The notes under the pieces are model-generated. The model was not told the origin of the DNA. It worked only from the letters and a program-made list of their open reading frames with translations, and did not search any database. 21,326 nt of DNA from the IMG/VR virus record IMGVR_UViG_3300048104_000775, positions 1-21,326 of that record. One strand, written 5' to 3'. The position numbers were made by a program, and so were the translations under genes. The stretch comes from a virus. This document shows, one piece after another, positions 1,447-20,142 of the stretch (its first letter is position 1; the number at the start of each line of letters is the position of its first letter).

Positions 1447-4400
1447 ATGTCTATAAATTTAAATGTAAACGGTAATACGGCCCCGCTGGAGGCAGCTGTT
1501 CAGGCGGCTGTAAACAGAATTCGCAAGACTCCAATCAAGGTAACTGTTGACGATAAGGGTGCTACTCAGCCCTTGGGCAATATGAAGCGGGGCGCTGATG
1601 AGTTTAGCAAATCGATGGAAGCTGCGAACGCTCGTATTATAGCTTTTGGAGCAAGTATGGCGATTATAAATGGAATTTCTGACGCATTCAAAGCTATGGT
1701 CACCAATGTCGTTCAGGTAGAAAAAGCTTTGGCAGATATTAATGTTGTGATGGGTTTAAGTTTGGCTAACTTGGATAAGTTTTCAGACTCTTTATTTAAG
1801 GTAGCAAAGGAAACTGCTGCAAGTTTTGATGTAGCCGCTGCTGCAGCCACGGAATATGCACGTCAGGGTTTAGCTGTCGAGGAAACTTTAAAAAGAACCA
1901 AGGACGCTTTAATCTTGACTCGATTAACAGGCATGGACTCTGCAAATGCAGTTAAAGCTTTAACTGCTGCGATGAATACATACGGAGATGAAATAAAAGA
2001 TACTACTCAATTGGTTAGTAAGTTTGCCGCAGTAGACGTTAAGTTTGCGGTTAGCGCAGAAGACTTTGCTGATGCAATATCTCGTACTGGTCAGGCTGCA
2101 AAAAGCGCTGGAGTGGATATTGATGAATTGGTTGGTTTGATTACTGCCGCTCAGCAGAAAACTGCGCGAGGAGGTAAGGTGATTGGAAACTCGTTTAAAA
2201 CAATTTTCACGAGAATAGGAAGAACTGATACATTAAATCAATTAGAAAACTTGGGCATTGCTGTTCGAGATGTCGAAGGAAATACAATGGGCGCAAAAAG
2301 AATTTTGACTGATCTTGCAAATACGTTTGACTCTTTGACCGAGTCGCAAAAAGCTCAAATTGCACAAACAGTTGGTGGAGTTTTTCAAATCAATGTTCTT
2401 AAGGCTGTATTAAGTGATGCCGCGAAACAAAACGGAATTCTTGCGAACGCAACACAAATTTCTGCAGGAGCTACGGATGAAGCTATACAAAAGAATGAAC
2501 AATTAAGAAGCACGATGTCTGCAATGGCTAGCGAAACAGGTCTCGCGCTTAAAGAAGTTTCTGCCAAAATAGGGGAGCTCGCGATAGCTCCTGGAATGGA
2601 AAAGATTTTAAATATCGTTAAAGGTTTTGCGGAGGGAGCTTCTGATATGCTTGGAGATGGAGAGTCTTCTGGAAATAAATTTGCTACAGGTTTTTTAAAA
2701 GGACTCGGTAATATTATTACTGGTCCGGGATTGGTTGTTATCGTTGCCGTGTTTGGCAAACTATTTTTGAAAGCGGCTCAGTATGCTCGAGAAAGTTTGA
2801 GCTCGTTGATTGGTGTTACGAGTGAAGCTCAAAAACAAAAAGCTATACAAACTTCTTTGGTCACTTTATTTGGTCAGAACGCAGCTCTTAGCAAGGAGAT
2901 GTTGCGCACCGATATCTCTCGAACAGAAAAAGAAAGAATAATTCTTGGATTGCTTAAAGCTCAGGTAGTGGAAGCTAATGCTTTAAACACTATCGCGAGA
3001 AGTTCTGCAGCTAATTTGTATCAAAAAGGTTACGGATCTAATCTTGCTCCCAGAGGAAAACCTCGCCGTACAAGCGCGCAAGGTTATATACCTAATTATG
3101 TAGACGCTGAGCGCCAGCAGGCCGCACAAGGTGGGTATGCTGCTGGAAGTATTCGCAGTATGAACATGCCTGGCGAAGGCTCGGTAATATATAATAGCGC
3201 AGAAAAGGTAAAGAATTTTAAAGGCATGAGTCAGCCCGCGATTATGCCTCCAAAGTCAAGTAAAGCTGGAGAAAATTATCAACAAGCATTTGATAGTATA
3301 CATGGATTCGATCCATATGCCGCAGGAGGATATATACCGAATTTTGCGAAAAAAACCGCATCTAAAACTTCTGATATTCCACGAAATCTTAATTCTAAAA
3401 AACTGGGAGATCTGAATAAAGATTCTTCTTTAATTTTATTAACCGCTGACTCTTCTGCTGATAGCGAGTCGAGGTTCTTTGTAGGAAAAGACCCTAAGGG
3501 TGGGACAAAAATTTTAAACACTGCAGATCTAGCTTCAAAGAGGACTACGGGTTATTACCAAGTAGATGTTCCGTATTATTCTCTAGATAAAAACGACAAA
3601 AGTAGGAAAAGCAAAATAGACTTACCCTCGATACAAAAGGCAATTACTGCTGCAGCATCAGGCAAAGCTCTTGATATAGCCAAGCAAATTGTCGGGGGAG
3701 AGAAGAATTTAAAACCTTTTAATAGAGAACAAATTAAAGAAACATTTAATAAAGGCGCTTTTAAGGGCGCCGCTGGTAGCGCATTCGAGAGTGCAATAGC
3801 TGCAGCCCTTGACTCTTATTTGTTTCAAGATTATAAAGCAAGAACTGATACATCTGCGATAGATTTACCTTATGACCCTAAGGTGTTTCAGTATTTTGGA
3901 GCTCCTCCTGGCGCTGGGAAAATGGGGGCAGAGGTAAAAGCTGATCTAGCTAACAATTTGCAACAAGGTGCCGCCAATAAGTTTTATCAGGTTTTAGCGG
4001 GGGGTCGTGCGGCATGGCAATATAAGGATAAAAATTTTAAGGACCAAATGAGGGGGTCGGCTGAAGATGCAGGTTTGGAAAGAAGGGGGGGCGCTTATTT
4101 TAAGAAAGGTAGGGCTTACGGTCATATTCCAAACTTCGCCGCAGCGCGACTAGCTCTCACGGGTGGATTGGTTGGAAAAAACAAATTTGGCAATATAGAT
4201 CGCAGGCAGATGACAAGACTAGTAAGATCTAATCCTTACTTCAACGGCTTGATGAATGAACATCTTACATGGGACAGTTTTCCGAAAAAAGATAAGCGTA
4301 AATTAAGCAGGTGGCTACTCAAACAAGGGGTGTCTAACCGAGCCTTACAAGCGTATGGTCTTGCAAGCATGCATTCAAAATCGATCGGAGAGGGAATCTC

Positions 4401-7400
4401 AAGCTTAGCTATGGCGAAAGGCTATATTCCTAACTTTGCTGACCCATTATCTGATGCGATAGGTAGGGAAAAAGAGGCTGGAGTTCCTGTTTCTAAAATA
4501 CGAATTGGCTCCCATCCTGCACTCATGGGTAAAAGCAATCCTGTAGGACTCGGCGTGACCAATACTGACGATGAACCAAATGGACTGCGCGATGTATTTG
4601 GTGCCGCTAATGGATATGTGCCAAATTATGCACCGACTCCATTAACATACTCTGATATAGGTTCCGGCAGAAGCGGAGGCTCTTCAGCTGCGCAGGCACA
4701 AATGGAAAAAAGCGCCAAGCAGTACAATAAAAGTCTGCAAAGATTAATAAAACTTTTTGAGCGAAAAAAACTGAGTCACGAGCAATTAATAAAAGGTTCA
4801 AATAATTTAAATCAAAAATACAGAGTAAATGCAAGTGCATCTTCAAAAGTGTCTAAAGAACTTAATTCTATGCAAGGCTCTATTGGTAAAGCTAAAGCGG
4901 GTCTAGAAAGAGCTTCATTATCTTATCAAAGAAGTTCGGTTGGTAGACTCTCAGCTGGCGCGGGAAGAATGTTCAGTGGTAACGCCGGAATGATGATGAT
5001 GATGGGTGCGCCGATGGCCGCAGGGTTCTTGCAGAGTGATGGGCCAGGGCAGGCGGGAATGGGCGGGGCTGCGTATAGCGCCGGAGGAGCATTAACTGGA
5101 GCAGCTTCCGGAGCTATGATGGCAAGTATGGTCGCCCCAATGTTTGGTCCCGCAGCTCCATTGGTGATTGCCATGGGAGGTTTAGTTGGGGGGTTTAAAG
5201 GTTTTATCAGTGCTCAAGAAGAAAACACAAAAGCTTTAGAGAAAAATAGACAAGAGCTCGTTCAAAAACAAACACAAACGGCCTCTCAATCTTTATCAAA
5301 AGTTGTACAAGCTTCTGAGTTGAGAACTTCACTTAAGCAAGCCAGTTTAGTAGGCGAGGGAGATAAGCTTGGTCTAGGCCAAGACGATTCCGTCATAAAT
5401 CTCATTCGGGAGGTCGGTAAAAAATCTAAAGGCTTTAATTTTGATGAAAAAGGGCAAGGGAAAGGAAATCTTCAGGGCATTAATAAAGGTGATTTTGAAA
5501 GGTTTTCAAGTTTAATGAACTGGAATGCCAAAACCGGAGATATAGAGTCCAAATCCAAGTTTGAGGATGGAGACGCCGAGACGATGGAGAAATGGTATAA
5601 TAAACAAACGAGAGAGTATACCCAAAGAGAAAGCGAAGATTTTAAGGTCTATAAAAAAGTCTCTAAAAAAATAATGGACCTACCGGATAATCAGGAAGCT
5701 CCGATGCCTCAAGATCTGCGAAGTTTTCTAAAAAGCAGAGATGGAGATGCTGAAGCCGGAATGAATGCGTCAATAGATTATATTTTAAAAAACGAAGCGG
5801 GTAACGAATTTGAGTTCGGCGATCAAAAGTTCGATAGAGAAAATTACCGAAAGCTTATGAGGGGCGAGCGGTCGGTGAATAGCAAAGGCAATAATGTAGA
5901 TGCGCTGGACCTAGAAACAAGAGGTAATGCTTTAACCGGTCAAGCTGAAGGCATATTAGATAAAGAAAATAAAGCGAACGGCGAAAAATTAAAAGGGATT
6001 ATTGTTCAGATTGATAACCAAAGAATGCAAATAACTGCTCAACGAGCTATAGCGATGAAGCAGTTAGAGATTAAAGACCACTACTCAGAAATTTCTGAAG
6101 ATTTAAAATTTGAAGTTATGTTAATGGGAAGTTTGATGACAGATAAGCAAAAAGCTGAAAACAAATACCTTCAAGCAATAAACAAATCCGCAGAAGCTTA
6201 TGAAAAATCCGCAGCTTCTGCAGATGGTCAATTAAGGACAGGGTTACTAAATCAAATAAAAGGTAGTGCCGACGTTCAAGGTTTACTTAAAGAATCATTG
6301 GGCCTTGAAAAAGGCGCTCAGTTTCAAGATATTAGTGACAAGGTTGGAAGTTTAACTGGAGGCCAGATGGTCGAAAAACTAAAGGAAATAGCGGCTGACT
6401 CAGACACAGAAGACACCATGCGTAAGGCTATAAATGATTTACTTACTGTAGAGATAGACAAAAGACAAAATATTTTAGATATCGCAGAAAAAACTAAAAC
6501 GAACTCCACAGATCAAGCAACTAGAGAGCAAAAGATTAATAATATACTCGCAGGTCGATCTCAAATTATAAAAGATTTAGAAAGGGGAAATCGCATGTCT
6601 TCAGAAGATCTTCGATCTTCCCAGAAAATCCGAGGGTTTACCGAACAAGTTGCCGCAGCAAAAAGGTTAAATGCTGTAGGCCCAGGATACCAAACCAAAA
6701 GAGAAAGAGAAAATTTTACAATGTCCGAGAAAAGATTTGGATTAGAATCTAAAATCACAACTCTCGAAGAAAATAAGGCAAAATCTATAGGAGAGCTAAA
6801 TATAGAAAAAGAAAAAACTAATCAAGTGATTGACCAAGACAAACTCAAAAATTTAAGACAAAACAAAAAAGATGCAGAAGATTATAGTGAGCCTTTGTTA
6901 ATTTCTGACCAAGACCTAGAAACACTGAATAAGTTGGAGGAACTTGAGGTCGAAAGAATTAAAAAACTAGAAGAAATCGAACAAAAAATAAAAAACATAA
7001 ACTCCGAAACGGACAGCGAAATAGACAAAGCAAAAATACTTTTAGAAAAAGAAAAAGAAAGATTAGAGATAAAAAGAAAACACGAAACTGGACCTGGAGC
7101 ATTTGGTAGGGGGTTGGCGGGCGGCATGAAAAGCATGGCTGAACAAGTTGAAACGATGGACTACGAGCTTGGAACAAGGCTTCCTCAAACATTTGCTAAT
7201 GGTTTGTCTGGAGCGTTCATTGAGGCGATCAATGGAGCCAAGGACTTGGACGACGCGCTCAGAGAAGCTGGCTTGAATTTCTTGAAGATGATTCAAGAAG
7301 CCATGATGCAAAAAATGGTCATGCAAATGATGGGAGGCTTGGGATTTTCGCAAGGAGGTAATGTCCGCAATTACTCGAAAGGCGGAAATGTTCCCGCAAG

Positions 7401-8496
7401 AGTTTCGAATGGAGAATATTTAATGAGTCGAGAGGCTGTAAATAAATACGGCGGATCATTTATGCATGGATTGAACGCCCGAGGAAAAGCTCCTGGATTT
7501 TCTTCTGGAGGAAGAACTATTCAGCCAGGATCTCAACTCTCCGTTAATCCGGGATCCTTTGATTCAGGCAGAAAATACCAAAGACGACAAATGTCGGGAT
7601 TCTTTTACAGTGGCCAAGGAAATACCATGGGAATGAGAGAGGATCAAGAAACTGTTCGTGGAATAATCGCAGAGAGAGAGGCGAAGAGAAGAGAAGAGGA
7701 AGCTAAGGCTCGAGCAAAAAAACAAGAAAAGAGAGCTATGTGGGGAATGTTAGCTTCGACTGTAGCTATGGGCGCTATAAGCCACATGATGAGTGGAGGG
7801 ATTGATACGCGGACTGCAGGCGCAAAGGCTGATGGTTATACTGCAGACACTCCTTCTGGGGTTAGGTCTGCTACAAAAGATGGTTACCAATACAGTCTTC
7901 TGCCTGGTGCTAGTTCTGAAGGATTTGATAATGTTTCTAAAACCAGAAGCTGGAACCCTTTTAGCTGGGGAGGTTCTGGGGCTAGCATGAACGAAAGGCA
8001 ATTTCAATTTAATGATTTTCAGACTTCTCCGAATTATGGCGTTCCCCTCGACCCGTTCGGGTATAATGATCCTAGGCTTGCGTATTTTGGCGGAAAGATA
8101 AGCAACTACGCAAATGGCGGACCTATTTCTGGAAAGCCTGGAATCGATCAAATTCCAGCGATGCTTAGCGAGGGCGAGTATGTCGTTAAGGCTAGTAGTG
8201 CGAGACAGATTGGTAAGCCAATGCTTGACCGAATAAATGCTGGAAAATTTTATAATGGAGGAGCTGTTTCCGAAATGGAGGAAGCTTCTGATTCTGGCAT
8301 TTCTGGTGGAAAAACTAATAATATTAATATATCCGTAAACATAGAAAAGGGATCAGTTAAGTCTGAAAACAGCGAATCCAAGGGCGATGACGAAAAGGAA
8401 AAATCTGAAGGTTCATCTCTAGCCGAAAAAATAAAAGAGCAGATTTTATCTGTTATTATTGAGGAACAGAGACCTGGCGGAGTTCTGGAGGATTAG
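1447..8496 (+). CDS. Tail tape measure protein with embedded repeat-flanked modules
   Basis: 2349 residues. It is expected to fill the tail tube lumen, set tail length and be ejected with the DNA. Residues about 85-330 match the TP901-type minor tail/tape measure core (PhageMin_Tail style), e.g. TEYARQGLAVEET, LTGMDSANAVKALTAAMN and a VGGVFQINVLKA end. A hydrophobic segment follows at about 426-443. Residues 546-1062 are a modular region punctuated by five GYIPNFA-type motifs and holding a nuclease-like domain. Residues about 1180-1255 are Gly/Ala/Met-rich and hydrophobic, with a five-Met run at 1182-1186, a likely membrane-interacting part. Residues about 1260-1880 are charged and helical, ending in a coiled coil (about 1825-1880). 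The end (about 1885-2349) resembles lambda-type tape measure C-termini (LDDALREAGLNFLKMI, then repeated Gly-Gly ... GEY[LV][MV] units). The assignment as tape measure is very secure from length, composition and place; the internal cargo interpretation is inference. It ends 2 bases before the next start. Confidence 0.95.
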   Translation: MSINLNVNGNTAPLEAAVQAAVNRIRKTPIKVTVDDKGATQPLGNMKRGADEFSKSMEAANARIIAFGASMAIINGISDAFKAMVTNVVQVEKALADINVVMGLSLANLDKFSDSLFKVAKETAASFDVAAAAATEYARQGLAVEETLKRTKDALILTRLTGMDSANAVKALTAAMNTYGDEIKDTTQLVSKFAAVDVKFAVSAEDFADAISRTGQAAKSAGVDIDELVGLITAAQQKTARGGKVIGNSFKTIFTRIGRTDTLNQLENLGIAVRDVEGNTMGAKRILTDLANTFDSLTESQKAQIAQTVGGVFQINVLKAVLSDAAKQNGILANATQISAGATDEAIQKNEQLRSTMSAMASETGLALKEVSAKIGELAIAPGMEKILNIVKGFAEGASDMLGDGESSGNKFATGFLKGLGNIITGPGLVVIVAVFGKLFLKAAQYARESLSSLIGVTSEAQKQKAIQTSLVTLFGQNAALSKEMLRTDISRTEKERIILGLLKAQVVEANALNTIARSSAANLYQKGYGSNLAPRGKPRRTSAQGYIPNYVDAERQQAAQGGYAAGSIRSMNMPGEGSVIYNSAEKVKNFKGMSQPAIMPPKSSKAGENYQQAFDSIHGFDPYAAGGYIPNFAKKTASKTSDIPRNLNSKKLGDLNKDSSLILLTADSSADSESRFFVGKDPKGGTKILNTADLASKRTTGYYQVDVPYYSLDKNDKSRKSKIDLPSIQKAITAAASGKALDIAKQIVGGEKNLKPFNREQIKETFNKGAFKGAAGSAFESAIAAALDSYLFQDYKARTDTSAIDLPYDPKVFQYFGAPPGAGKMGAEVKADLANNLQQGAANKFYQVLAGGRAAWQYKDKNFKDQMRGSAEDAGLERRGGAYFKKGRAYGHIPNFAAARLALTGGLVGKNKFGNIDRRQMTRLVRSNPYFNGLMNEHLTWDSFPKKDKRKLSRWLLKQGVSNRALQAYGLASMHSKSIGEGISSLAMAKGYIPNFADPLSDAIGREKEAGVPVSKIRIGSHPALMGKSNPVGLGVTNTDDEPNGLRDVFGAANGYVPNYAPTPLTYSDIGSGRSGGSSAAQAQMEKSAKQYNKSLQRLIKLFERKKLSHEQLIKGSNNLNQKYRVNASASSKVSKELNSMQGSIGKAKAGLERASLSYQRSSVGRLSAGAGRMFSGNAGMMMMMGAPMAAGFLQSDGPGQAGMGGAAYSAGGALTGAASGAMMASMVAPMFGPAAPLVIAMGGLVGGFKGFISAQEENTKALEKNRQELVQKQTQTASQSLSKVVQASELRTSLKQASLVGEGDKLGLGQDDSVINLIREVGKKSKGFNFDEKGQGKGNLQGINKGDFERFSSLMNWNAKTGDIESKSKFEDGDAETMEKWYNKQTREYTQRESEDFKVYKKVSKKIMDLPDNQEAPMPQDLRSFLKSRDGDAEAGMNASIDYILKNEAGNEFEFGDQKFDRENYRKLMRGERSVNSKGNNVDALDLETRGNALTGQAEGILDKENKANGEKLKGIIVQIDNQRMQITAQRAIAMKQLEIKDHYSEISEDLKFEVMLMGSLMTDKQKAENKYLQAINKSAEAYEKSAASADGQLRTGLLNQIKGSADVQGLLKESLGLEKGAQFQDISDKVGSLTGGQMVEKLKEIAADSDTEDTMRKAINDLLTVEIDKRQNILDIAEKTKTNSTDQATREQKINNILAGRSQIIKDLERGNRMSSEDLRSSQKIRGFTEQVAAAKRLNAVGPGYQTKRERENFTMSEKRFGLESKITTLEENKAKSIGELNIEKEKTNQVIDQDKLKNLRQNKKDAEDYSEPLLISDQDLETLNKLEELEVERIKKLEEIEQKIKNINSETDSEIDKAKILLEKEKERLEIKRKHETGPGAFGRGLAGGMKSMAEQVETMDYELGTRLPQTFANGLSGAFIEAINGAKDLDDALREAGLNFLKMIQEAMMQKMVMQMMGGLGFSQGGNVRNYSKGGNVPARVSNGEYLMSREAVNKYGGSFMHGLNARGKAPGFSSGGRTIQPGSQLSVNPGSFDSGRKYQRRQMSGFFYSGQGNTMGMREDQETVRGIIAEREAKRREEEAKARAKKQEKRAMWGMLASTVAMGAISHMMSGGIDTRTAGAKADGYTADTPSGVRSATKDGYQYSLLPGASSEGFDNVSKTRSWNPFSWGGSGASMNERQFQFNDFQTSPNYGVPLDPFGYNDPRLAYFGGKISNYANGGPISGKPGIDQIPAMLSEGEYVVKASSARQIGKPMLDRINAGKFYNGGAVSEMEEASDSGISGGKTNNINISVNIEKGSVKSENSESKGDDEKEKSEGSSLAEKIKEQILSVIIEEQRPGGVLED
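3082..4632 (+). repeat. Five dispersed GYIPNFA-type protein motifs inside the tape measure
   Basis: The motif G-[YH]-[IV]-P-N-[FY]-[AV] occurs at residues 546 (GYIPNYV, nt 3082-3102), 628 (GYIPNFA, 3328-3348), 892 (GHIPNFA, 4120-4140), 992 (GYIPNFA, 4420-4440) and 1056 (GYVPNYA, 4612-4632). Four are preceded by a small or polar stretch such as AQ, AG, AK or AN. The pieces between them are 75, 257, 93 and 57 residues long and unlike each other. Codons differ among copies (tat ata cct, tat ata ccg, cat att cca, tat att cct, tat gtg cca), so the protein motif is kept by selection or is old, not a recent DNA duplication. I remember similar motifs in metagenomic phage proteins, but know of no established function. 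Confidence 0.9.
3349..4119 (+). other. Candidate PD-(D/E)XK nuclease-like module within the tape measure (residues 635-891)
   Basis: This is the longest piece between two GYIPNFA-type motifs. It contains an order of residues typical of the PD-(D/E)XK fold: a helix with GSAFESAIAAAL (Glu781), then acidic residues in ARTDTSAIDLPYD (Asp801, Asp806), then a short hydrophobic strand with AEVKAD (Glu829-x-Lys831), followed by helix-like NNLQQGAANKFYQVLAGG. The first 120 residues of the module look like a separate strand-rich lead-in (SSLILLTADSS, ESRFFVGKD). The call is from motif spacing only; the fold is not proven, and the module could be a catalytically dead or unrelated domain. Confidence 0.5.
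4984..5211 (+). other. Hydrophobic Gly/Ala/Met-rich segment of the tape measure
   Basis: Residues 1180-1255 contain a five-Met run (1182-1186), a Gly/Ala/Ser-rich stretch (about 1205-1230) and a strongly hydrophobic run ending in LVIAMGGLVGGFKGF. Tape measure proteins often carry such segments, which are thought to enter the host inner membrane during DNA ejection. No other segment of the protein is as long and uncharged. Confidence 0.6.
7381..7512 (+). repeat. First copy of the tape measure C-terminal GEY unit
   Basis: Residues 1979-2022 read GGNVPARVSNGEYLMS, then AVNKYG, a Leu-Asn pair and a closing Gly-Gly. The second copy at 8116-8262 has the same order: Gly-Gly, Pro-Ala, S-x-GEY, a hydrophobic pair, Gly, I-N-A-G, Gly-Gly. 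This unit is common near the ends of tape measure proteins and supports that identification. Confidence 0.7.
8116..8262 (+). repeat. Second copy of the tape measure C-terminal GEY unit
   Basis: Residues 2224-2272: GGPISGKPGIDQIPAMLSEG, then EYVV, a helix and DRINAGKFYNGG. It is a diverged copy of the unit at 7381-7512. Between the two copies lie about 200 residues with an Arg/Glu/Lys-rich helix (about 2075-2100), a short hydrophobic stretch and Gly/Ser/aromatic sequence. Confidence 0.65.
8487..8492 (+). promoter_or_regulatory. Ribosome binding site deciding the GTG start at 8499
   Basis: GGAGGA inside the last codons of the tape measure gene, 6 bases before GTG 8499. This strong match at ideal spacing supports the GTG start and tight coupling to the upstream gene. 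Confidence 0.75.
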
Positions 8497-10166: not shown

Positions 10167-11077
10167 GCAAGCCCTTTTTAAGATTTGAGGATGGAAAGGT
10201 TACTATAGGTTCTAGAGACTTAATGGTTAAAAGTGCAAACCTATCTATCGCTCCTAAATTACAAACAGAAAGAGTTTATGGAGATTATGATCCGAGTATT
10301 GCGGGAGCTAGAACTGAATTTGTAAATTTTTTACCCATTGCTTCATTGGCTGGAAGTCTTGATATTGAATTTCTTATTAACGCCGAGACATTTTCTAGTG
10401 GTAATACGAATAGTATTTCAAGGTTGTTTGAAATAGCGGAGGGAATGAGTGAGGGCCCTATAAACGAAAACTTGGTCGGAAGGTACTCTTTTAATAATAT
10501 GTACTTGCGATCTTTTGGCTTTAATGTTTCTCCGTTTAATGTTGTCAGGGCAAAAGCTTCGTACGACATATACGGAAGTCTATCAAAGAGCATTCCTTTT
10601 AGGTCTTCTCAGACCAGTAAAAATTTTGCCCATGGGTTAAAATCGTTTGGAGAAATGAAAGCTAGCAATGTTCTATCTGAGTCTGCCGTGCAGGGTCAAT
10701 TTGAAATAACAAATTTAGATTATACTATATTGGTGGAGAGAAAAATTCATCATCATATAAGAGATAATGAGCATACCTCTATCAATACTAAAGCTGACGG
10801 AGCCTTACCGTTTAGAGTGTCTGTGGAGTCTATAGAATCCGAGATGTCAATAAGCTCTAATGAGATTATACCTTCGCTCAATAATCGGGGCGATTATCAA
10901 TCATCAAGTTCTCCTTACGGAATTGAAGATTCTTCTATAAGTGCTTATTTGTATTCTATCGAGGGCTCTCAAATCGCTAGATTTTCTTGCAAAGGGAAAA
11001 TTCAATCTCAGTCCACCTCAATATCTGAAGGCTCCCTATCAAAAGGTAGTATAACCATAAGGGAGATAATAAAATAA
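10163..11077 (+). CDS. Tail tube-like protein, paralogue of the preceding gene
   Basis: 304 residues, ATG 10163 overlapping the previous stop by 4 bases. Residues 1-145 form a beta-rich domain with FGFNVSPFNVVRAKASYDIY at 118-137, which aligns with YSVSCSVGQVPEIRTDIRVF at 105-124 of the preceding protein (pattern V/P-x-x-x-R-x-x-x-x-[VI]-[FY]-G-x-L). Residues about 165-304 form a second domain whose QGQFEITNLDYTILVERKIH and SISEGSLSKGSITIRE segments align with the second domain of the neighbour. It lacks the aromatic insert. Lying between tape measure and M-like genes, it is probably a tail-terminal ring or distal tail component; a tube or minor structural role is also possible. The stop overlaps the next ATG by one base (TAATG). 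Confidence 0.6.
   Translation: MSKPFLRFEDGKVTIGSRDLMVKSANLSIAPKLQTERVYGDYDPSIAGARTEFVNFLPIASLAGSLDIEFLINAETFSSGNTNSISRLFEIAEGMSEGPINENLVGRYSFNNMYLRSFGFNVSPFNVVRAKASYDIYGSLSKSIPFRSSQTSKNFAHGLKSFGEMKASNVLSESAVQGQFEITNLDYTILVERKIHHHIRDNEHTSINTKADGALPFRVSVESIESEMSISSNEIIPSLNNRGDYQSSSSPYGIEDSSISAYLYSIEGSQIARFSCKGKIQSQSTSISEGSLSKGSITIREIIK
11059..11065 (+). promoter_or_regulatory. Ribosome binding site of the 2549-residue tip gene
   Basis: AAGGGAG, 11 bases before ATG 11077, within the end of the previous gene. With the TAATG overlap it suggests coupled translation plus independent initiation. Confidence 0.5.
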
Positions 11078-12276
11078 TGAGTTTTGTTGGTAAAATTGCA
11101 TGTGGAGTTGGGCATATTATTTGTTTGAAAACCAATGGATCTGTCTGGGGGGTTGGGTTTAATAAAAAAGGGGCTTTGGGGCTTCGACAAGTGCAAGGCT
11201 CTCAACCTGATGAGACAAGCTTCAAGAAGATGCTTGATGCTAACGGTTCAGCATTCGAGCTTTTACCTGGCGAAGATTGTCATCTATCTGCCAGCACAAA
11301 CAATTCGTTTTTTATAAAAAGCGATGGTTCTTCATGGGGAGTTGGCAGTCAATATAATGGCGTTTTATCTGATGGAGTAGTAAGCTTGGAAACTAGCGCA
11401 TCGTTTCCGGTTAAGGGACTTGGGCTTGAAAATATAATTCATGTTTCTTCTTCGGGTTCTCACGTCGCTTACTTAAAAAGCGATGGAACTGTATTGACTA
11501 TTGGTGGCAACTCTCAAGGTCAACTTGGAAACGGCTCGGTTGAGAATCAAAGCTTGCCTGTTCAGGTTATGGCCAACGCTTCAACCGTTTTTGATAACGT
11601 TAGTAAGGTTGAGTGTTCTGCTGGGTCCATTGTTTTTTTACGGAGCGACGGGTCTGTTTGGGCTGTTGGAGATAATTATAACGGAACTCTTGGCGATAAT
11701 AGCGGTCAAGATCGGTTGTTTCCTGTGCAAGTTGTTGATCAACAGGGCGACGCCTTATTGGACATAATTGATATTGCGTGTGGATATGATCATGTTTTGT
11801 TTCTAAAAAGTAATGGTACTGTTTTCGGAGCTGGACTTAATCGGTTTGGTCAACTAGCTCAAGGTTCGGGGGGTGGGTATAAATACTCCAGCGCTGTGCA
11901 ATTAAAGTCTGATTACGCTGCTCAAGACGTGCTTGAAGATATAATTTCTATTGATGCGGGTTATTATCATTCTGTTTTCTTGCGCCAAGATGGAAGCGTG
12001 CTTTCTGTGGGGATCAATGAACACGGAGAGTTGGGCGATGGTTCACAATCCGACAAAAAGGCGCCAGTGCTTTTAAAAAAACACGATCTTGGTACTTTAT
12101 ATGGAGTAAATTATATTCGTTGCGGAGCGTTCTTTACTAGTTGTTTATGCGACGATGGTTCTTTATGGGGGGTGGGTCAAAATAATTTTGGGCAACTCAG
12201 TGATGGAACCAAAGAAAATAAAAGTCTCGCGATTCAGGCAGCTCACGAAGACGGTACTTTTTTCAATTCTGTAAGT
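11077..12276 (+). other. Seven RCC1-type repeats (predicted beta-propeller)
   Basis: Residues 1-400 hold seven units of the form [FYC]-L-[KR]-x-[DN]-G-[ST]-x-x-x-x-G-x-N-x-x-G-x-L, at about 16, 79, 132, 187, 242, 301 and 356 (e.g. FLRSDGSVWAVGDNYNGTLG). Spacing is 53-63 residues. Seven repeats are the number that closes an RCC1 propeller. It sits at the very N-terminus, before a flexible linker. Confidence 0.88.
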
Positions 12277-15200
12277 ACTTATGCTCCTGGTCAATCTAGC
12301 CCAGATCCCACTCCAGATCCAGATCCCACTCCAGATCCAGATCCCACTCCAGATCCAGATCCCACTCCAGATCCAGATCCCACTCCAGATCCAGATCCCT
12401 ATTCTCCTCCTTCGTCTGTCGACCCTGAAAACCCAGAAGATTTAATTTTTGACGGAGATACCTTAGGTGGAGATAGTGCTTTCTTTCATCAGCTTGATAC
12501 AAATATTTCTAATTATAGTGGTTTTTTTGAAACAGGAAAAAACTATAAAAAGTTTGATTTTGTATTTGATTCTGGGGATGGTAAATTTTATTACGCAAAA
12601 GAAGACTTGACTTACGGTAGCGATATAACCCTAGAGGGTTCTGATCGATTTTTTCTTGAACCAAATGGGCCAACTTCGCTTGACGGAAATCCCTCTCATT
12701 ATATATACGATGAAAGAAATGAGTTAACCACCTTGAATAACGAATTGCAAGTCGGTCAAACTATTCATATAACTGGATCTTTGTTTGGGTCGGATGGATT
12801 TTATAAGATCTTGGATTATGAAAAAGATTTATATCGACCGGGTTCATTGGACGGAACTATAGCTGGAGTTCTTGATGCAACTCCTGTTGAGGGAGTCAAT
12901 AACTGGTATGAATCTTCATGGCTTTTTGTTTGTAATGAAGGCACGAATGAGGAAATAAGTGAGCCTTTTTTCTCAATCGTTTCTAGTGATCGATGGATTT
13001 TTCATAACATGCTTGGGTGGTTATACATAGCTCCTCAAGGACAACTTCAGGATGGCGTGTGGATTTTTTTTCCTAGAGAAGGAGTTAAAAGTTCTGCAGC
13101 GGAAGATGTTGGATGTTGGGTTTGGGCATCCATAGAAACATTACGAGGTGCATCAAAAATGTATGTAAGCGAGTCCGATGGAAATCATTTCGGTCCTGCT
13201 GGCAGCTGGATTCACTGGCGAAAATCAGGATATCCTGAGTTTGCTGCTGTTTTTTATAACTATGAATCATCTAGGTGGTATGGATTTAAAAAACAAAATA
13301 AAGGTGTGCAAGAAATAGTAAATCGTGGACCTCTTCCGGATTTTCCCACTTTTAGTCCTGAGTCTAGGGTTGGAGCTGGTTTGTCTGCAAGAATCCATAT
13401 CCAAGGGGTAGATGCACAAACAAGCATCAGGCAAGTTGAGGAGGTTTCTGACAATTTTATATCTATTAAAGCTATTGCTGAAAATTTATCTTCCGATAGA
13501 GACTCTTGGTCTAGCGATTTATTTTTCTTTGACGCTGATTACGGATCAAGCGTAGACTTTAAAGCTGATAATGTTATAAATAAATTCGGAGATGGGTATT
13601 ACGCTGTATCTCCAAAAGGCGTGAACTCCTTGAAGGCAGAAATTAATTTGCAGTTTAAAAATAGAAGTAATCGCGAAGCGAATGCTATAGTTCATTTTTT
13701 AGAAAGCCATCAAGGGCAATTGGATCAAGATGTTGAATCTGAAACTCTAAATTATTCTCAGGGGATATCTGGTTTTAGGTGGGATGGAAATTCTACATTT
13801 CACCCATACGATTCTACGGAGACGCAATCTAAAACTTTTTATTGTTCTGAATTTTCTCATAATTTAAATTTTGAAAATAATAATGATTTAAATGTTAAGC
13901 TTGTTAATTACAATACATCTTTGCTTAGAAAGTCTGAAGAGCTGTTTATTAAAAGGCCTGATGATTATAATGATCAGGATTATTATTCTTTAAATGATGT
14001 TGTTTTTGATACTGGTAATCATCAATACTATTATTGTCATAGCGGGGACGGATCTCAGTCAAGGCAGGGGCTTGAGCCTGTACAAAATAATACCGAATGG
14101 AATAGAGACTCTAGAGATTTTCAGAATGTTAATAAAAATTTTTGGACTCGCAGTTTTTTCTGGAAGCCTTCTCTTGGACTCAATGTCGCTCAAGACGTTG
14201 AGCTTAGCGAGGTGGATCTAGGGTTGCCGTATAAGCAGGTTTATAAAAATGGAATCAATCAAAACTTATTAAAGTTAGATCTAAATTTTAATAATAGATC
14301 TGATTTGGAAGCTTACGCTATTCTTCATTTCTTGGAGCAGCATTATGGCTCTGTTCCGTTTGTTTTTTCTCCTCCCGCTCCGTACGAAAGAAAGAAAAAT
14401 TTTATTTGTCAACAGTGGAGGCATACGTATAACTTTAAAGATAATCATAGTATATCTGCGACTTTTGAAGAGTTCCCAATTAATTTAACTAGTGAAAAGT
14501 TACTTAATAATATCGGGCCTTCTCCAAAAACTCCTGCAGAAATATTAATGCCTCAGGAGATTAGTGTTCGAGAGCAAAAAGATCAATCTCTGTGGAGTCA
14601 GGTTCAATTGAGAAAAATTAAATTACAAAATATAGGCGGGTACGATGCAGCTGTAGATTCTTTATTTTTTGATAGTGGAGAAGCTTTTTTTAGGCTTCTT
14701 GGAAAGCCTGAATTAGGCGATAATTATATTCCCGAAAATTTATCAAGCGAGGAGCCTTTAACTTCGGCTATTATATCTTCTGTATTCTTGGATATAGTTG
14801 GCGCATCTATCGGAGCAGATGATCTAAATCTTTACTCTCAGAAAAACCATTGGACAGTAGGTACTCTGTCTAGCGCTATACTTAATTCACAAAACTTTTT
14901 GGAGTTAGTTCCTGATGCCAGAAATATCAATATACTGTACATAGACTTACTGGGTAGGGCTGTTGAGGTTGGAGAAAATATTGACAATTTACTTGATTCG
15001 AATACTTTTCCTGATGCTCGAAGTATTGTGCAACAAATTAAGTTGCTAGAAGAATATAGAACTTTTCAAAAACAGTCGGTTAAAATCGTTCCGAGAAAAG
15101 TAAAGCAAAATCAAAAACAAATTACCATTCCGGACAATAAACTCAAGAATGTAGGCCTGAATGGTTCTACTGTTATGTTGACAACAGAAAGTGACGAAGT

Positions 15201-18200
15201 TTTAGAATTTATAGAAATTGACACGCAAGTTAAATTTCGTCAATACCTGGACGGCAAAATAGGCAAGGAGGGAGAGAAGTTGGTTGATTCTGATTACTTT
15301 GTAATCGAGGGGTTTGTTAAAAAATTTGGAACCAACATTTTGAATGATAACTCTGATGGTTATATTTTTGTAAAATATGATAATGATTCAAGAGGTTATT
15401 CTAGTAATTTTCTTATCGATTCCGATGGAGAGCTTGTGGATATTACTAATGCACAAGGTGATGCGATTGGTAATTTGGAGGTTGAGATAACAAACGGTTG
15501 GTTGTACGGAGATTTAAAATTAACATGGGATAGTAAAAGTATACAAAGTAAAATTCAGCACTGGATCGTAGCAGATTCTTCAGCAATTCGAGCTTTAAGG
15601 GTTCAGCCTTGGGCTCTATCTGCCAACGAGTCTTTTCAAGATTATCTCGACAAAAGTTTAGAGGTTATTCCTGCTCCTCGGATTAGCATGCCAACATTTG
15701 CCTCTGGATATACTGATGAAGACGAAAATTTTGTGCCTAAGGATAAGTGGAACTTTCACGCTCGGCATTTTTGTAAAACAGATGTTATTGTGAACTCTTC
15801 TATCTGGGGAACTCAGGATGTTCCAACTAAAAGCATCAAAGATTTAAGTAGTGATGCTTTAATTACATTCGCTAATACTGAAAATCTATCTGATTGGGCC
15901 AACGAATTAATTCCTCTTGGATTTTATTCCAGACAACAGATAGTTTCTGACGGAACAGGAGGTGATGAGGATGTCGGAAGTGTTAGCGCTATAACATCTG
16001 CTTTGCTTGGAAGGGTTGCCACAGAAGATGAAATCGAGGCATATGCCGGACAAACTGTTGAGGATGTTGTTAATGATTATTTAAGAAAAGAATTTGTCTT
16101 GAGTGGAAAATTTATTCAAAAAAATTATTTTGAAATAACCCTAGACTTTGTTCCGAGAAAAGCGGATCCTGTCTTATTCAAGGGGATGTGGGTTCCGTAT
16201 GAGTTAACTCTGCATTCAACCGGAGACGGAGGAATGCTTTTGCCTAGAGAACTTTCCCAAAACAATATTGGTGATGTAAATGGCTGGTCTCCTGGCCAAG
16301 ACTTTTTACTTTTTGGTACGAGTGTCGATGATGACGAGCACACTGTGCTTGATTATATATCAACTTCTGATAGTACGAAATTAAGAAATGGATACGCGTT
16401 TTCTTCTACGCAAAAAGGTATTTGTAAAATAAACCAGGAAATAAAAAATGATTCAGGTGAAACGGTGGCCATTCGGGCGAAAATTAAATTTAAACTGTTT
16501 GGAAGTTCTGTTTCTGCTGATATTAGCGATCCAAATAATCCTTCTGCTTTTTATGTTCCTGGTAGTTCTGGTAATTTAGAAGTGGTTGTGGGTGAATATG
16601 CTTCCAAGCATGGTATTGTTTATCGACAAAAAGAAACTTCTTTTGGAGATCAATTATCATTTGGACTTGTTGAGTTTAGTAATCAAGTTAGAGGTGGGGA
16701 TGGCTTTCAATATATTCGAAGAAGGCAAAGTTTGAATGAAGATTTTGGGCCCTGGGGGCATATAGAAGATGACAATTCGTTTAGGGCCTGGTGGGCCGCT
16801 CAACCCCATAAATTGTTAGATCTGGCAGATGCAGATGGTAATCCAAAAAAGAATGAATGGCCTTGGATTTATACAGACAAATATTGTACGATCGGAACCA
16901 ATAGCAACTGCTACAGTGCTCCGAGTATTGATGTAAATGGAAATGTTGAAGCAGTGAAATATGTTCGAAAATCTTGGATGCCTCTTTTAGCGAGTCTTTA
17001 TGCGCAGCACTTAGCGACTTCTGATGATTTAGAAATTATTCTTCAGGCAGAGTCTTCAGTTTTCGAATTTGATGATGATGCTGGAATGTGGAAACTAAAT
17101 GGAGATTACATTCCTGACTTGAATGGTTTTATTTCTTTTTTGGAGGTTAAATACCCTGACAATACGATAATTGTCGAAACCAGTGAAACTAATGAAGCTG
17201 GAGAGAGTGTTTCAGTATTTAAGTATATTTCTTTTAGCGAAATTAATAAATGGAGAGAGACTGATGAGCTTTATGTATTAATGAAAGAGTTTCTTGTTAG
17301 TGAAGCAGAAAATTATAAAATATATATCGAAAAAGCTGAATCTCAAGATTTTTCTTACTCTGTGGTTAATCAAGCTGGGGACGTGCATTTTTCTGGTTAC
17401 AATTCTATTCAGTCTGCTACTTTAGAGTGGGAAAGATTAAATAATAAATTTTTCTATAAAAATTTCGTATTCGAAGATGTTCATGGAGAGCTGAGAAAAT
17501 TTGCACACGTAGTAAATTGTGATCAATATTTTGCTAACCCCAATAACTCTTCTTCAAATCAAAGTTGGAGTTATACATATTTTGATAAAGCGTCCGAAGA
17601 TAAACTTAAAGCAATAAACTCAGCGTATCAAAATATACCTCACTCAACTGAGACTCACGATAATCAAAATTATGATATTATTAGATTTGGTATTGGTAGA
17701 AGTCCTTTGCCTGAGACTTCATCTAATGCAGGTTTGAAGATTAATGCTTACTATTATATGAGCTTAAACGAGGAGGTTAAGCGGGAAATCTCAATCGCAA
17801 TTGAAACTATCGAGTCAATAATTTCGACTCCAATGACTATAAATGTATTTTTCTCTGAGCAACCAAACGGTAGACTTGGCGAAGCCGCCGAGTCGTCTAC
17901 CAATGCTAACTGTTTCATTCATCCTAATTTAGATTATATAGTTGGCGGAATGGGTTCTAGCGATTTCTCTAGGCCTGTGTCTTCTTCTATAACAATTAAT
18001 CCTGATGGGTTGTATAAGAGTATTGAATGGCATAGAGACATAAATCCCGATTACGAGTCAAGACTTTTATCTCCTGTTTACTACCTCATGTTACACGAAA
18101 TACTTCATTCTTTGGGCGTTGGATCCATGTGGTTTTTTGGAGGTTATTCGCACAATGGAGGTACAGCGTATCAATTGTTCGATCATCCGCGCAGAACAAG

Positions 18201-18726
18201 GCTTTTATCTGATAATATGCAGGAATCTCTTATTTGGGGGGGCACTATGAAGTCTTACGCAGAAAAATATTTATTGACCGAGGTGACTACATCTAATAAT
18301 ATTTATTATATAGGAGAACATGGCTCCGACAAATTTATAGATTTGTGCGCTTCCAGAAACGTAACGCATGGTGGTGCGGCTCCATATTTTCTGCGCGAAG
18401 GTGTAGCGGGGAACCCTTCTGCTATTCAATTTACGTACGACACAAAAATTGCATTATCTCCTCTAAGCAGGAGTATGGCAGCTGATCACGTTGCAGAGTT
18501 ACCGAGAATTAAGGAGATTTATTCCGGTGATGCGTTACAAGCAGTCCAATTATCTCCAGTATTTTCTGACGAAATTATGTCTATAGTTTACGACCCTGAG
18601 GACAACAAACCAATGGTAATATCAAGTATGACCATCGGCATGCTTCAAGATTTAGGTTTTTCTGTAGATTATTCTGTGGCAAATGATAGCGACCAACACT
18701 TGACATTAAACGATAAAATCTTATGA
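11077..18726 (+). CDS. Giant mosaic tail tip protein: RCC1 propeller, gpM-like domains, metalloprotease
   Basis: 2549 residues at the place of lambda M (gpM is about 110 residues). In order: RCC1-type repeats (1-400); Pro-Asp linker (409-441); a short Y-x-x-x-D-x-V ... YY segment like carbohydrate-binding family 5/12 (485-530); aromatic module (607-737); first gpM-like domain (817-945); a second Y-x-x-x-D-x-V segment (965-1025); second gpM-like domain (1027-1136); two DUF4214-like repeats (1228-1332); a long beta-rich part not recognised (1340-1635); a third DUF4214-like repeat (1637-1682); a part with paired Cys and Trp-rich sequence not recognised (1690-2170); and a leishmanolysin-like zinc protease (about 2175-2535, HEILHSLGVGS at 2340). 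There is no signal peptide, as expected for a virion protein. The gpM parts would anchor it to the tape measure/tip complex, while the propeller, aromatic and CBM-like parts likely bind host surface ligands and the protease trims surface protein. The functions of the added parts are inferred. It overlaps the L-like gene by 4 bases. Confidence 0.85.
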   Translation: MSFVGKIACGVGHIICLKTNGSVWGVGFNKKGALGLRQVQGSQPDETSFKKMLDANGSAFELLPGEDCHLSASTNNSFFIKSDGSSWGVGSQYNGVLSDGVVSLETSASFPVKGLGLENIIHVSSSGSHVAYLKSDGTVLTIGGNSQGQLGNGSVENQSLPVQVMANASTVFDNVSKVECSAGSIVFLRSDGSVWAVGDNYNGTLGDNSGQDRLFPVQVVDQQGDALLDIIDIACGYDHVLFLKSNGTVFGAGLNRFGQLAQGSGGGYKYSSAVQLKSDYAAQDVLEDIISIDAGYYHSVFLRQDGSVLSVGINEHGELGDGSQSDKKAPVLLKKHDLGTLYGVNYIRCGAFFTSCLCDDGSLWGVGQNNFGQLSDGTKENKSLAIQAAHEDGTFFNSVSTYAPGQSSPDPTPDPDPTPDPDPTPDPDPTPDPDPTPDPDPYSPPSSVDPENPEDLIFDGDTLGGDSAFFHQLDTNISNYSGFFETGKNYKKFDFVFDSGDGKFYYAKEDLTYGSDITLEGSDRFFLEPNGPTSLDGNPSHYIYDERNELTTLNNELQVGQTIHITGSLFGSDGFYKILDYEKDLYRPGSLDGTIAGVLDATPVEGVNNWYESSWLFVCNEGTNEEISEPFFSIVSSDRWIFHNMLGWLYIAPQGQLQDGVWIFFPREGVKSSAAEDVGCWVWASIETLRGASKMYVSESDGNHFGPAGSWIHWRKSGYPEFAAVFYNYESSRWYGFKKQNKGVQEIVNRGPLPDFPTFSPESRVGAGLSARIHIQGVDAQTSIRQVEEVSDNFISIKAIAENLSSDRDSWSSDLFFFDADYGSSVDFKADNVINKFGDGYYAVSPKGVNSLKAEINLQFKNRSNREANAIVHFLESHQGQLDQDVESETLNYSQGISGFRWDGNSTFHPYDSTETQSKTFYCSEFSHNLNFENNNDLNVKLVNYNTSLLRKSEELFIKRPDDYNDQDYYSLNDVVFDTGNHQYYYCHSGDGSQSRQGLEPVQNNTEWNRDSRDFQNVNKNFWTRSFFWKPSLGLNVAQDVELSEVDLGLPYKQVYKNGINQNLLKLDLNFNNRSDLEAYAILHFLEQHYGSVPFVFSPPAPYERKKNFICQQWRHTYNFKDNHSISATFEEFPINLTSEKLLNNIGPSPKTPAEILMPQEISVREQKDQSLWSQVQLRKIKLQNIGGYDAAVDSLFFDSGEAFFRLLGKPELGDNYIPENLSSEEPLTSAIISSVFLDIVGASIGADDLNLYSQKNHWTVGTLSSAILNSQNFLELVPDARNINILYIDLLGRAVEVGENIDNLLDSNTFPDARSIVQQIKLLEEYRTFQKQSVKIVPRKVKQNQKQITIPDNKLKNVGLNGSTVMLTTESDEVLEFIEIDTQVKFRQYLDGKIGKEGEKLVDSDYFVIEGFVKKFGTNILNDNSDGYIFVKYDNDSRGYSSNFLIDSDGELVDITNAQGDAIGNLEVEITNGWLYGDLKLTWDSKSIQSKIQHWIVADSSAIRALRVQPWALSANESFQDYLDKSLEVIPAPRISMPTFASGYTDEDENFVPKDKWNFHARHFCKTDVIVNSSIWGTQDVPTKSIKDLSSDALITFANTENLSDWANELIPLGFYSRQQIVSDGTGGDEDVGSVSAITSALLGRVATEDEIEAYAGQTVEDVVNDYLRKEFVLSGKFIQKNYFEITLDFVPRKADPVLFKGMWVPYELTLHSTGDGGMLLPRELSQNNIGDVNGWSPGQDFLLFGTSVDDDEHTVLDYISTSDSTKLRNGYAFSSTQKGICKINQEIKNDSGETVAIRAKIKFKLFGSSVSADISDPNNPSAFYVPGSSGNLEVVVGEYASKHGIVYRQKETSFGDQLSFGLVEFSNQVRGGDGFQYIRRRQSLNEDFGPWGHIEDDNSFRAWWAAQPHKLLDLADADGNPKKNEWPWIYTDKYCTIGTNSNCYSAPSIDVNGNVEAVKYVRKSWMPLLASLYAQHLATSDDLEIILQAESSVFEFDDDAGMWKLNGDYIPDLNGFISFLEVKYPDNTIIVETSETNEAGESVSVFKYISFSEINKWRETDELYVLMKEFLVSEAENYKIYIEKAESQDFSYSVVNQAGDVHFSGYNSIQSATLEWERLNNKFFYKNFVFEDVHGELRKFAHVVNCDQYFANPNNSSSNQSWSYTYFDKASEDKLKAINSAYQNIPHSTETHDNQNYDIIRFGIGRSPLPETSSNAGLKINAYYYMSLNEEVKREISIAIETIESIISTPMTINVFFSEQPNGRLGEAAESSTNANCFIHPNLDYIVGGMGSSDFSRPVSSSITINPDGLYKSIEWHRDINPDYESRLLSPVYYLMLHEILHSLGVGSMWFFGGYSHNGGTAYQLFDHPRRTRLLSDNMQESLIWGGTMKSYAEKYLLTEVTTSNNIYYIGEHGSDKFIDLCASRNVTHGGAAPYFLREGVAGNPSAIQFTYDTKIALSPLSRSMAADHVAELPRIKEIYSGDALQAVQLSPVFSDEIMSIVYDPEDNKPMVISSMTIGMLQDLGFSVDYSVANDSDQHLTLNDKIL
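12301..12399 (+). repeat. 18-base tandem repeat encoding a PDPTPD linker
   Basis: Five base-for-base identical copies of ccagatcccactccagat (12301-12390) plus half a copy (12391-12399), encoding (PDPTPD)5-PDP at residues 409-441. It is in frame, so copy-number change would alter linker length without breaking the gene. It separates the propeller from the rest of the protein. Confidence 0.95.
12889..13296 (+). other. Aromatic (W/Y/F-rich) module, copy in the giant tip protein
   Basis: Residues 605-740. Blocks NWYESSWLFVCNEGT, MLGWLYIAP, GCWVWAS, and AAVFYNYESSRWYGF line up in order with residues 210-343 of the protein encoded at 8499. It lies between the first CBM-like segment and the first gpM-like domain. 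Confidence 0.7.
13525..13911 (+). other. First lambda gpM-like domain
   Basis: Residues 817-945. FFFDADYGSSVDFKADNVIN, then FGDGYYAVSPKGVNSLKAEI, then a helix with EANAIVHFLESHQG, an FRW block and a Cys-containing strand (FYCSEFSHNLNF). This is the order of lambda minor tail protein M (FGDGY-x-x-x-x-x-x-G-x-N, helix with FLE-x-H-G, F-x-W, Cys strand). gpM acts in tail tip assembly. Confidence 0.75.
14155..14484 (+). other. Second lambda gpM-like domain
   Basis: Residues 1027-1136. LDLNFNNRSDLEAYAILHFL, EQHYG, PFVFSPPAPY, and FICQQWRHTYNF match the first copy closely (shared L/I-x-L-x-F-x-NRS-x-x-EA-x-AI-x-HFLE-x-H-x-G). The FGDGY turn is replaced by LGLPY, so this copy is more diverged at its start. 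Confidence 0.72.
14758..16122 (+). other. DUF4214-like helical repeats (three), split by a beta-rich part
   Basis: Helical units with the pattern h-x-x-h-h-G-R/A ... h-x-x-F: residues 1231-1276 (SSVFLDIVGASIGADDLNLY, then ILNSQNFLEL), 1284-1331 (INILYIDLLGRAVEVGENID, then QIKLLEEYRTF) and 1637-1682 (VSAITSALLGRVATEDEIEA, then YLRKEFVLSGKF). LGR followed by an acidic stretch and an S/E-E-F/Y end is typical of DUF4214, found in large extracellular bacterial proteins. The role here is unknown. Confidence 0.5.
17599..18681 (+). other. Leishmanolysin-like zinc metalloprotease domain
   Basis: Residues about 2175-2535. A helix plus strand (IAIETIESIISTPMTINVFF) leads to LGEA, then the zinc motif HEILHSLGVG at 2340-2349 (His2340, catalytic Glu2341, His2344). 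No His lies at the usual eleventh position, as in the M8 family, where an insertion separates the third ligand; His2471 (ADHVAEL) is my candidate. EIMS at 2499-2502 (Met2501) fits the Met-turn, and SSMTIGMLQDLGFSVDYS matches the closing helix typical of M8-like proteases. Confidence 0.8.
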
Positions 18727-19820: not shown

Positions 19821-20142
19821 GGATATCCCTCAACATCTCTTTCAGGAAATAGAGAATTTCTCAAGGCTTAAACCTGAAGAAGAAACCTGTGGGGTGATAG
19901 TTGATACGCTTGGGGATTTGTCTTTTATGCCGTGTGATAACTTAAGTAATAATAAAAAAGTTCATTTTTTAATTGATCCTAAAATTTTAATTGATAATTC
20001 TGTTATTTTTATTTATCATTCTCATGTGAATCATTCTTCTAAACCTTCTGTTCCTGATATAAGAGCATCTAATGCTCTTGGTATTCCTTATTTGATATAT
20101 AGTTTGAGGGATTCTGACTTTTATTTATATAATTGTGTATAA
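19813..20142 (+). CDS. K: JAMM-family metalloprotease, lambda gpK-like N-terminal domain only
   Basis: 109 residues from TTG 19813; AGAGGA at 19799-19804 lies 8 bases upstream, and no ATG or GTG start that keeps the fold is nearer. The JAMM motif is complete: Glu24 in PEEETCGVIV, then HSHVNHSSKPSVPD at 69-82 (His69, His71, Ser79, Asp82: H-x-H-x7-S-x2-D). Lambda K carries a JAMM domain followed by an NlpC/P60 cell-wall peptidase; here the protein ends right after the JAMM domain, with normal stop and close spacing to the next gene, so no frameshift is suggested. It sits between L-like and I-like, exactly as in lambda. Probably a tail tip protease needed for assembly or entry; its substrate is unknown. 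Confidence 0.9.
   Translation: MSRDIPQHLFQEIENFSRLKPEEETCGVIVDTLGDLSFMPCDNLSNNKKVHFLIDPKILIDNSVIFIYHSHVNHSSKPSVPDIRASNALGIPYLIYSLRDSDFYLYNCV

Follow-up and report, generated by a model that had tools for sequence, protein, structure and literature searches.

Introduction

Polyvalent proteins, which are encoded by phages and conjugative elements, carry 2-15 domains each and are thought to be delivered together with DNA (Iyer et al., 2017, PMC5512222). Here, we describe a tape measure protein (TMP) encoded by an uncultivated virus (IMG/VR record IMGVR_UViG_3300048104_000775, positions 1 to 21,326; this whole stretch of 21,326 nucleotides is called the window), in which copies of a short motif of the GYIPNFA type divide the middle of the protein into exchangeable cassettes. 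Its gene occupies positions 1447-8496 of the plus strand, as do all TMP features given below, and loci compared with the window are designated by L-numbers. Literature comparisons refer to excerpts of the cited papers. Like polyvalent proteins, this is a long multidomain phage protein, and ADP-ribosyltransferase (ART), GNAT, nuclease and ParB-like domains recur in both. The carrier here, however, is the ruler of tail length, with each domain a bounded, swapped cassette, whereas the word 'tape' is absent from the polyvalent protein paper, in which we also saw no boundary motif that repeats.

Other described systems share different parts of this organization. Polymorphic toxins join a constant delivery part to a variable toxin that is replaced by recombination, with a pre-toxin element at the junction (PMC3482391), and the swapping of a variable domain by recombination at a conserved junction is also found here. 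Those toxins have one variable C-terminal domain and paired immunity genes, whereas the TMP has several internal slots with one motif between all of them, and its constant part resumes afterwards. The TMP-related effectors of contractile injection systems (Sle1, PMC13277306; PMC11126660) are likewise delivered, tape-measure-like proteins with diverse functional domains, but they belong to bacterial nanomachines and have a C-terminal functional domain, with no motif reported in the excerpts compared, in contrast to the internal arrays in phages described here. An enzymatic domain within a TMP is known from mycobacteriophage TM4, whose mt3 peptidoglycan hydrolase motif is a single wall-degrading motif, deletion of which shortens the tail (PMC1796659); the cassettes in the present family instead carry many enzyme signatures of intracellular type and are exchangeable. 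Finally, a large survey of domain shuffling in phage proteins flagged TMPs by sequence, but could not confirm genuine recent mosaicism in them (Smug et al., 2023, PMC10684548), whereas recent domain swapping is seen directly in the TMPs studied here, supplying the direct evidence that the survey lacked. A TMP with a cassette array split by one repeated motif is thus not described in the literature as excerpted for this comparison, although each known system shares part of it. A literature search for GYIPNFA and shorter variants, with preprints and subscription papers outside its scope, found no biological use of the motif.

If our interpretation is correct, the tail ruler, mainly seen as a structural coil and membrane channel, becomes a cargo carrier with standard connectors. 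Should the cassettes be injected effectors, uncultivated phage genomes would also become a readable catalogue of host-takeover enzymes, easily found by one short motif, and any part that the motif plays in loading tails with protein could be tested directly.

A short motif recurs within one family of tape measure proteins

As judged from its domain content and gene order, the 2349-aa product of positions 1447-8496 is a PhageMin_Tail-type TMP. The PhageMin_Tail domain (PF10145, E 1.7e-28; residues 120-311, positions 1804-2379) lies within a constant N-terminal head that is 75-99% identical among close relatives, the protein also matches many PHROG tape-measure families, and the long gene stands upstream of lambda-like tail-tip genes, in the order Phage_min_tail domain protein, minor tail protein L and JAB (K-type) protein. 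The original prediction, made from the window alone, had placed five copies of G[YH][IV]PN[FY] in this protein with differing codons, and all were found in the open reading frame (ORF): GYIPNYV at residue 546 (motif 1, 3082-3102), GYIPNFA at 628 (motif 2, 3328-3348), GHIPNFA at 892 (motif 3, 4120-4140), GYIPNFA at 992 (motif 4, 4420-4440) and GYVPNYA at 1056 (motif 5, 4612-4632). From amino acid composition, 1.3e-4 copies would be expected in 2349 residues. Successive motifs are separated by 75, 257, 93 and 57 aa, as predicted.

In searches of IMG/VR, codon-degenerate patterns for GYIPNFA and GFIPNFA each matched at least 120 stretches, compared with 2 for the scrambled control GPYNIFA encoded by equal codons. 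Among the matches listed for GYIPNFA, about 112 of 120 loci carried the motif in a long ORF, mostly more than once. In 257 Gb of prokaryote genomes, the pattern had 107 matches, of which nearly all were single occurrences within short or unrelated ORFs; that search also contributed four proteins with several motif copies, on contigs of metagenome-assembled genomes (L163, L175, L212 and L229). A non-redundant set of 180 motif proteins contained 547 copies, with two or more in 165 proteins and a usual range of 2-8, and differing domains lie between the copies. N-terminal parts homologous to that of the window TMP, at 25-100% identity, were present in 92 of 93 proteins, and the motif therefore marks one very diverse TMP family; the sole exception (L025) is an unrelated protein with a single chance copy. 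The original prediction had named confinement to one lineage with a fixed sequence between copies as the outcome that would speak against modules. Confinement to one TMP family is what we see, but the sequence between copies is far from fixed, and intervals range from 50 to 1249 aa.

A search with the window N-terminus, for which no motif was required, returned 68 loci, and all but one of the TMPs read there carry the strict motif, the remaining one (L383) having the variant G-L-V-P-N-[FY]-A. Most loci in this study were gathered by patterns that require the motif, and motif-free relatives were gauged by this N-terminus search, which returned mostly close relatives. Two TMPs of the same family, L022 and L302, have just two motifs, near the C-terminus, which flank an EAAGLLRAA..VANTSEAIIP module similar to the B module described below.

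Alignment of the 547 copies revealed a conserved unit of 10 residues, [A/K][A/S]xG[FY][IV]PN[FY]A. The six-residue core that had been predicted is real but falls short of the full unit, since position -1 is A or S in 91% of copies and position +7 is A in 81%; beyond positions -2 to +7, information drops to ∼0.3 bits. The G, P and N are kept at 98-100%, a figure partly built into the search pattern, as are other core letters, while neither A/S at -1 nor A at -2 belongs to the pattern. The 316 exact peptide copies are encoded by 194 different 21-mers, and third-base identity between copies within one protein is 0.58, against 0.51 expected. With so many codon versions, and third-base agreement barely above expectation, selection must act on the peptide. 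The motif is conserved at the protein level and is a recurrent boundary element, as had been proposed; the IMG/VR searches, the scrambled control and the 547-copy consensus all bear this out.

Cassettes are swapped, gained and lost at the motifs

Segments between motifs proved to be recurring modules in varied order and number, for example F-C-A in L083, C-A-A-H-F-B in L016 and A alone in many proteins; in the window the order is G-A-K-B. Slot 1 (3103-3327) holds the conserved short module G (75 aa), slot 2 (3349-4119) the hypervariable cassette A (257 aa), slot 3 (4141-4419) the helical cassette K (93 aa), which some relatives have and others do not, and slot 4 (4441-4611) the conserved short module B (57 aa; REK..AGVP..NPxGLGVTNTxDEP). 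Among 39 relatives with the architecture N-G-A-B-C, the N-terminus is more than 74% identical and medians for G and B are 84-99%, while the median for slot 2 is ∼30%, irrespective of how close the phages are. Even phage pairs with 95-100% identical TMP N-termini have domains between motifs 2 and 3 that are only 20-40% identical.

The edges of these replacements fall at the motifs. In the pair L345/L366 (N-terminus 100% identical, slot 2 30%, next module 95%, rest 89%), DNA identity of 99.5% over 10.2 kb extends to position 10890 of L345, the final base of motif 2 (10870-10890), and similarity returns at 95-98% from 11617, with motif 3 starting at 11620. Across 47 close pairs, which are not independent because some loci recur in many pairs, similarity breaks off at -1 to +25 nt relative to the start of motif 2 and resumes at -13 to +6 nt relative to that of motif 3; these two motifs mark the 5' and 3' boundaries of the swapped cassette. 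The reverse case, in which N-termini are 85% identical and slot 2 is 100% identical, was seen for L352/L379. Whole cassettes also come and go: of L376 and L380 (99% identical N-termini), only L376 has a certain cassette with edges at motifs 2 and 3, and a single cassette of L332 is matched by two in L330. Between the window and L326 (97.8% identical), similarity stops at 4629, inside motif 5, and the C-terminal tape was therefore replaced there. Cassettes are thus swapped, gained and lost with breakpoints at motifs, and the exchangeable modules of the original prediction are seen directly, in differing domains between copies, in the 47 pairs and in the cases of gain and loss. Because slot 2 changes with little other change in ∼18 kb of L345/L366, a tightly linked immunity gene of the kind paired with polymorphic toxins is argued against.

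Clustering of breakpoints at motif codons would also be expected if the motif DNA were the site of a dedicated recombinase that shuffles cassettes at the DNA level. Such a site would be conserved as DNA, and the variety of 21-mers and the near-expected third-base identity count against it; this explanation is largely refuted and we give it very little weight. As the route of exchange, we favour recombination through shared motif codons.

Three observations concern individual arrays. In L351 and L354, slot 1 is filled between motifs 1 and 2 by ∼600-670 aa of degenerate GSKNQ..PPQERQ repeats. L376, L377, L378 and L380 encode very long TMPs with 8-11 motifs, whose reading frames run past the end of the DNA retrieved, and a 122-aa cassette of L378 is present in two near-identical copies, a recent internal duplication. 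Over the C-terminal tape (4633-8496), the window is 39-47% identical to L325 and L326, while TMP heads and cassettes are 95-100% identical.

The motifs lie in predicted linkers beside possible membrane segments

AlphaFold2 was run on window residues 538-1075 with 55 relatives. In construct numbering, motifs 1-5 lie in the low-confidence stretches 1-14, 90-114, 342-375, 441-461 and 516-538, all in linkers with pLDDT<50, while slots 1-4 are predicted to fold, slot 1 as a small domain. Thus, the motifs are predicted to occupy flexible or disordered linkers between modules, in keeping with the hinge-type position suggested originally, and no single continuous fold, which would have spoken against modules, spans them in the model. 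The intervals, as had been claimed, are unrelated to one another, differing in sequence and length and forming separate predicted domains. What did not hold is the description of the surrounding protein as an otherwise ordinary tape measure through its middle, where four separate domains are predicted instead. A fold search with the multi-domain model was uninformative. These data also bear on the idea that the copies are duplicated tape units, that is, the repeats of an ordinary TMP. Duplication of TMP units has been proposed before (PMC3271669), but the intervals here share neither sequence nor length and are predicted to fold as separate domains, and for this region the idea is refuted.

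Two further explanations concern the motif itself. One is that it is a mere inter-domain linker, an ancestral relic at which exchanges are found since recombinants inside domains die; both the disorder and the breakpoints would be expected, and motif proteins with an intact N-terminus all belong to one TMP family, bar one chance match. However, G, P and N are nearly invariant (even allowing for the part set by the search pattern) despite homologues down to 25% identity, third codon positions are free, and flanking linker residues are not conserved, so we consider this explanation rather improbable. A rigid G-x-x-P-N core flanked by unconstrained residues is better explained by recognition of the peptide than by a neutral linker. 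The other is that each copy is cut by a phage or host protease, at assembly or after injection, to free effector domains, much as phage maturation proteases act on internal head proteins. A short, sharp consensus beside small residues in disordered linkers would suit a cleavage site, processing by built-in peptidases has been suggested for polyvalent proteins (PMC5512222), and the window encodes an HExxH protein and a JAB-domain protein. Nevertheless, we identified no protease linked to the motif, the JAB gene is an ordinary tail gene of the lambda K type, and five cuts would break the length-setting tape unless they came after assembly. Cleavage is therefore unlikely in our estimation.

A Kyte-Doolittle scan of 99 complete TMPs detected, in 95 of them, a hydrophobic segment ∼93 aa ahead of the first motif (residues 416-449, positions 2692-2793, in the window). 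Another follows the last motif, typically 169 aa on, in 61 of 99 (residues 1229-1252, positions 5131-5202, within the C-terminal tape of the window), and the cassette region itself is free of such segments in 98 of 99. This places the cassettes in a soluble stretch next to possible membrane segments, and in many TMPs between two of them. Length varies mostly in this middle region, with a coefficient of variation of 0.43, as compared to 0.07 for the head and 0.17 for the tape. We also considered whether a shorter tape compensates for cargo, and rejected it, as total length grows with cargo (slope 1.34) and there is no negative correlation.

Cassettes carry enzyme-like signatures

Several modules could be related to known enzymes. 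A staphylococcal nuclease (SNase) module (PF00565, E 1.9e-9) and GNAT acetyltransferase domains in two modules (PF00583) scored above the Pfam cut-offs. A P-loop kinase-like module, cassette C, has the Walker A sequence GPAGSGKST, and a sequence search of the structure database gave it mainly Walker-type matches (best E 7e-4). A ParB_N-like module was matched at E 0.015; a HAD-like module with DxDGT, and protein-kinase-like and ART-like modules, were assigned by eye. A PADLOC scan gave one weak match. Several enzymatic domains per protein, as in polyvalent proteins, are found at the level of the family, and the window itself has one enzyme-like cassette. At positions 6001-6351 of L430, a viral contig, a 126-aa ORF outside any motif TMP is 43% identical to cassette C, and could represent a source from which cassettes are drawn.

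The enzyme-like cassette of the window, in slot 2, is cassette A, the commonest cassette, and among its 118 members (9% mean column identity) only G, E, D and K are kept. The core G-x-x-F-E ... [FIL]-D ... [DE]-x-K was found in 162 of 468 segments, with the active-site E, D and K conserved at 97%, 100% and 99% in the core matches; the corresponding window residues are G777, E781, D806 and E829-x-K831. The slot-2 cassette therefore has the E ... D ... [DE]xK residue feature of the PD-(D/E)XK nuclease superfamily, and its AlphaFold2 model is of high predicted quality (pLDDT 86, pTM 0.81).

The tape measure as a candidate carrier of cargo

Taken together, we propose, with a probability of roughly 0.6, that the TMP carries an array of motif-bounded, exchangeable cassettes, enzymes that leave the virion with the tape, and that the motif is their standard joint. 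The array would have a single, fixed insertion point, ∼540-630 residues into the protein and soon after the constant hydrophobic segment, with each cassette bounded by the linear element AAxG[FY][IV]PN[FY]A in a flexible linker. Most of the large cassettes would be enzymes (nuclease-like, SNase, GNAT, P-loop kinase, HAD phosphatase, and possibly ART and protein kinase) that, upon infection, exit the virion along with the tape measure and work inside the host cell, in takeover or counter-defence; these roles are suggested by the match between the cassette signatures and the roles proposed for polyvalent proteins. The motif would be kept since it allows any cassette to be spliced in without disturbing the tape, and we favour for it the role of a short docking peptide for the tail-assembly chaperone or the tube wall.

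A number of points weigh against this proposal. The presence of cassettes in the virion or the host cell is something we infer from sequence, and the docking role is simply the one we favour. A globular domain of 250 residues would be hard to fit in the tail tube, so that passage would require its unfolding or prior removal. Similarity between the window and L325 stops at 4905, away from any motif. The HAD, kinase and ART assignments were made by eye or fall under curated cut-offs. The nuclease reading of slot 2 depends on its residue signature, because a search of PDB and BFVD with the slot-2 model gave no match at E<=0.001, and Pfam, NCBIfam and PHROG scans of 40-118 slot-2 members gave scattered, chance-level matches only. 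With the residue pattern present, and with neither a restriction-endonuclease-like fold nor a known-family profile found, we therefore describe slot 2 as nuclease-like and not as a member of PD-(D/E)XK; its fold may be new, with an active site of nuclease type.

A bolder form of the proposal is that these tails are reprogrammable multi-effector injectors, in which a universal 10-residue docking or release peptide loads any enzyme cassette onto the tape measure for delivery to the host together with the genome, and a hypervariable, new-fold, nuclease-like cassette is swapped in an arms race with the host or rival elements. We offer this tentatively, and would put it at somewhat short of even odds.

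Relation to cultured phages, and other tail genes in the window

In searches of cultured phages, tblastn with the B module, the G module and cassettes A and C found nothing convincing, and the window TMP matched only over its N-terminal PhageMin_Tail stretch, at ∼25%. The motif is absent from the fetched stretches of Geobacillus TP-84, marine virus AG-345-O18 and Synechococcus S-SM2, and no cultured phage tested carries it, the INPHARED set having been checked without a pattern search. An origin of the motif from the GGxxP...GEFV element of ordinary TMP C-termini was considered and set aside. The GEFV part itself occurs widely among phages (341 records), but the link is weak because the matches listed start past the GGYIPG part. 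Two GEYL/GEYV elements are present at residues 1989 and 2243, within the C-terminal tape of the window TMP.

Two neighbouring genes have unusual features. A 109-aa protein (19813-20142) at the place of lambda K has the JAB domain only (PF14464, E 6.6e-8), without the NlpC/P60 half. A 2549-aa tail protein (11077-18726) has N-terminal RCC1 repeats (Pfam E 2.9e-67), contains a DPDPTP repeat at 12316-12387 and a Phage_min_tail domain at residues 1027-1132, and has a C-terminal, HExxHxxG metalloprotease-like motif, HEILHSLGVG, at nt 18094, an unusual fusion.

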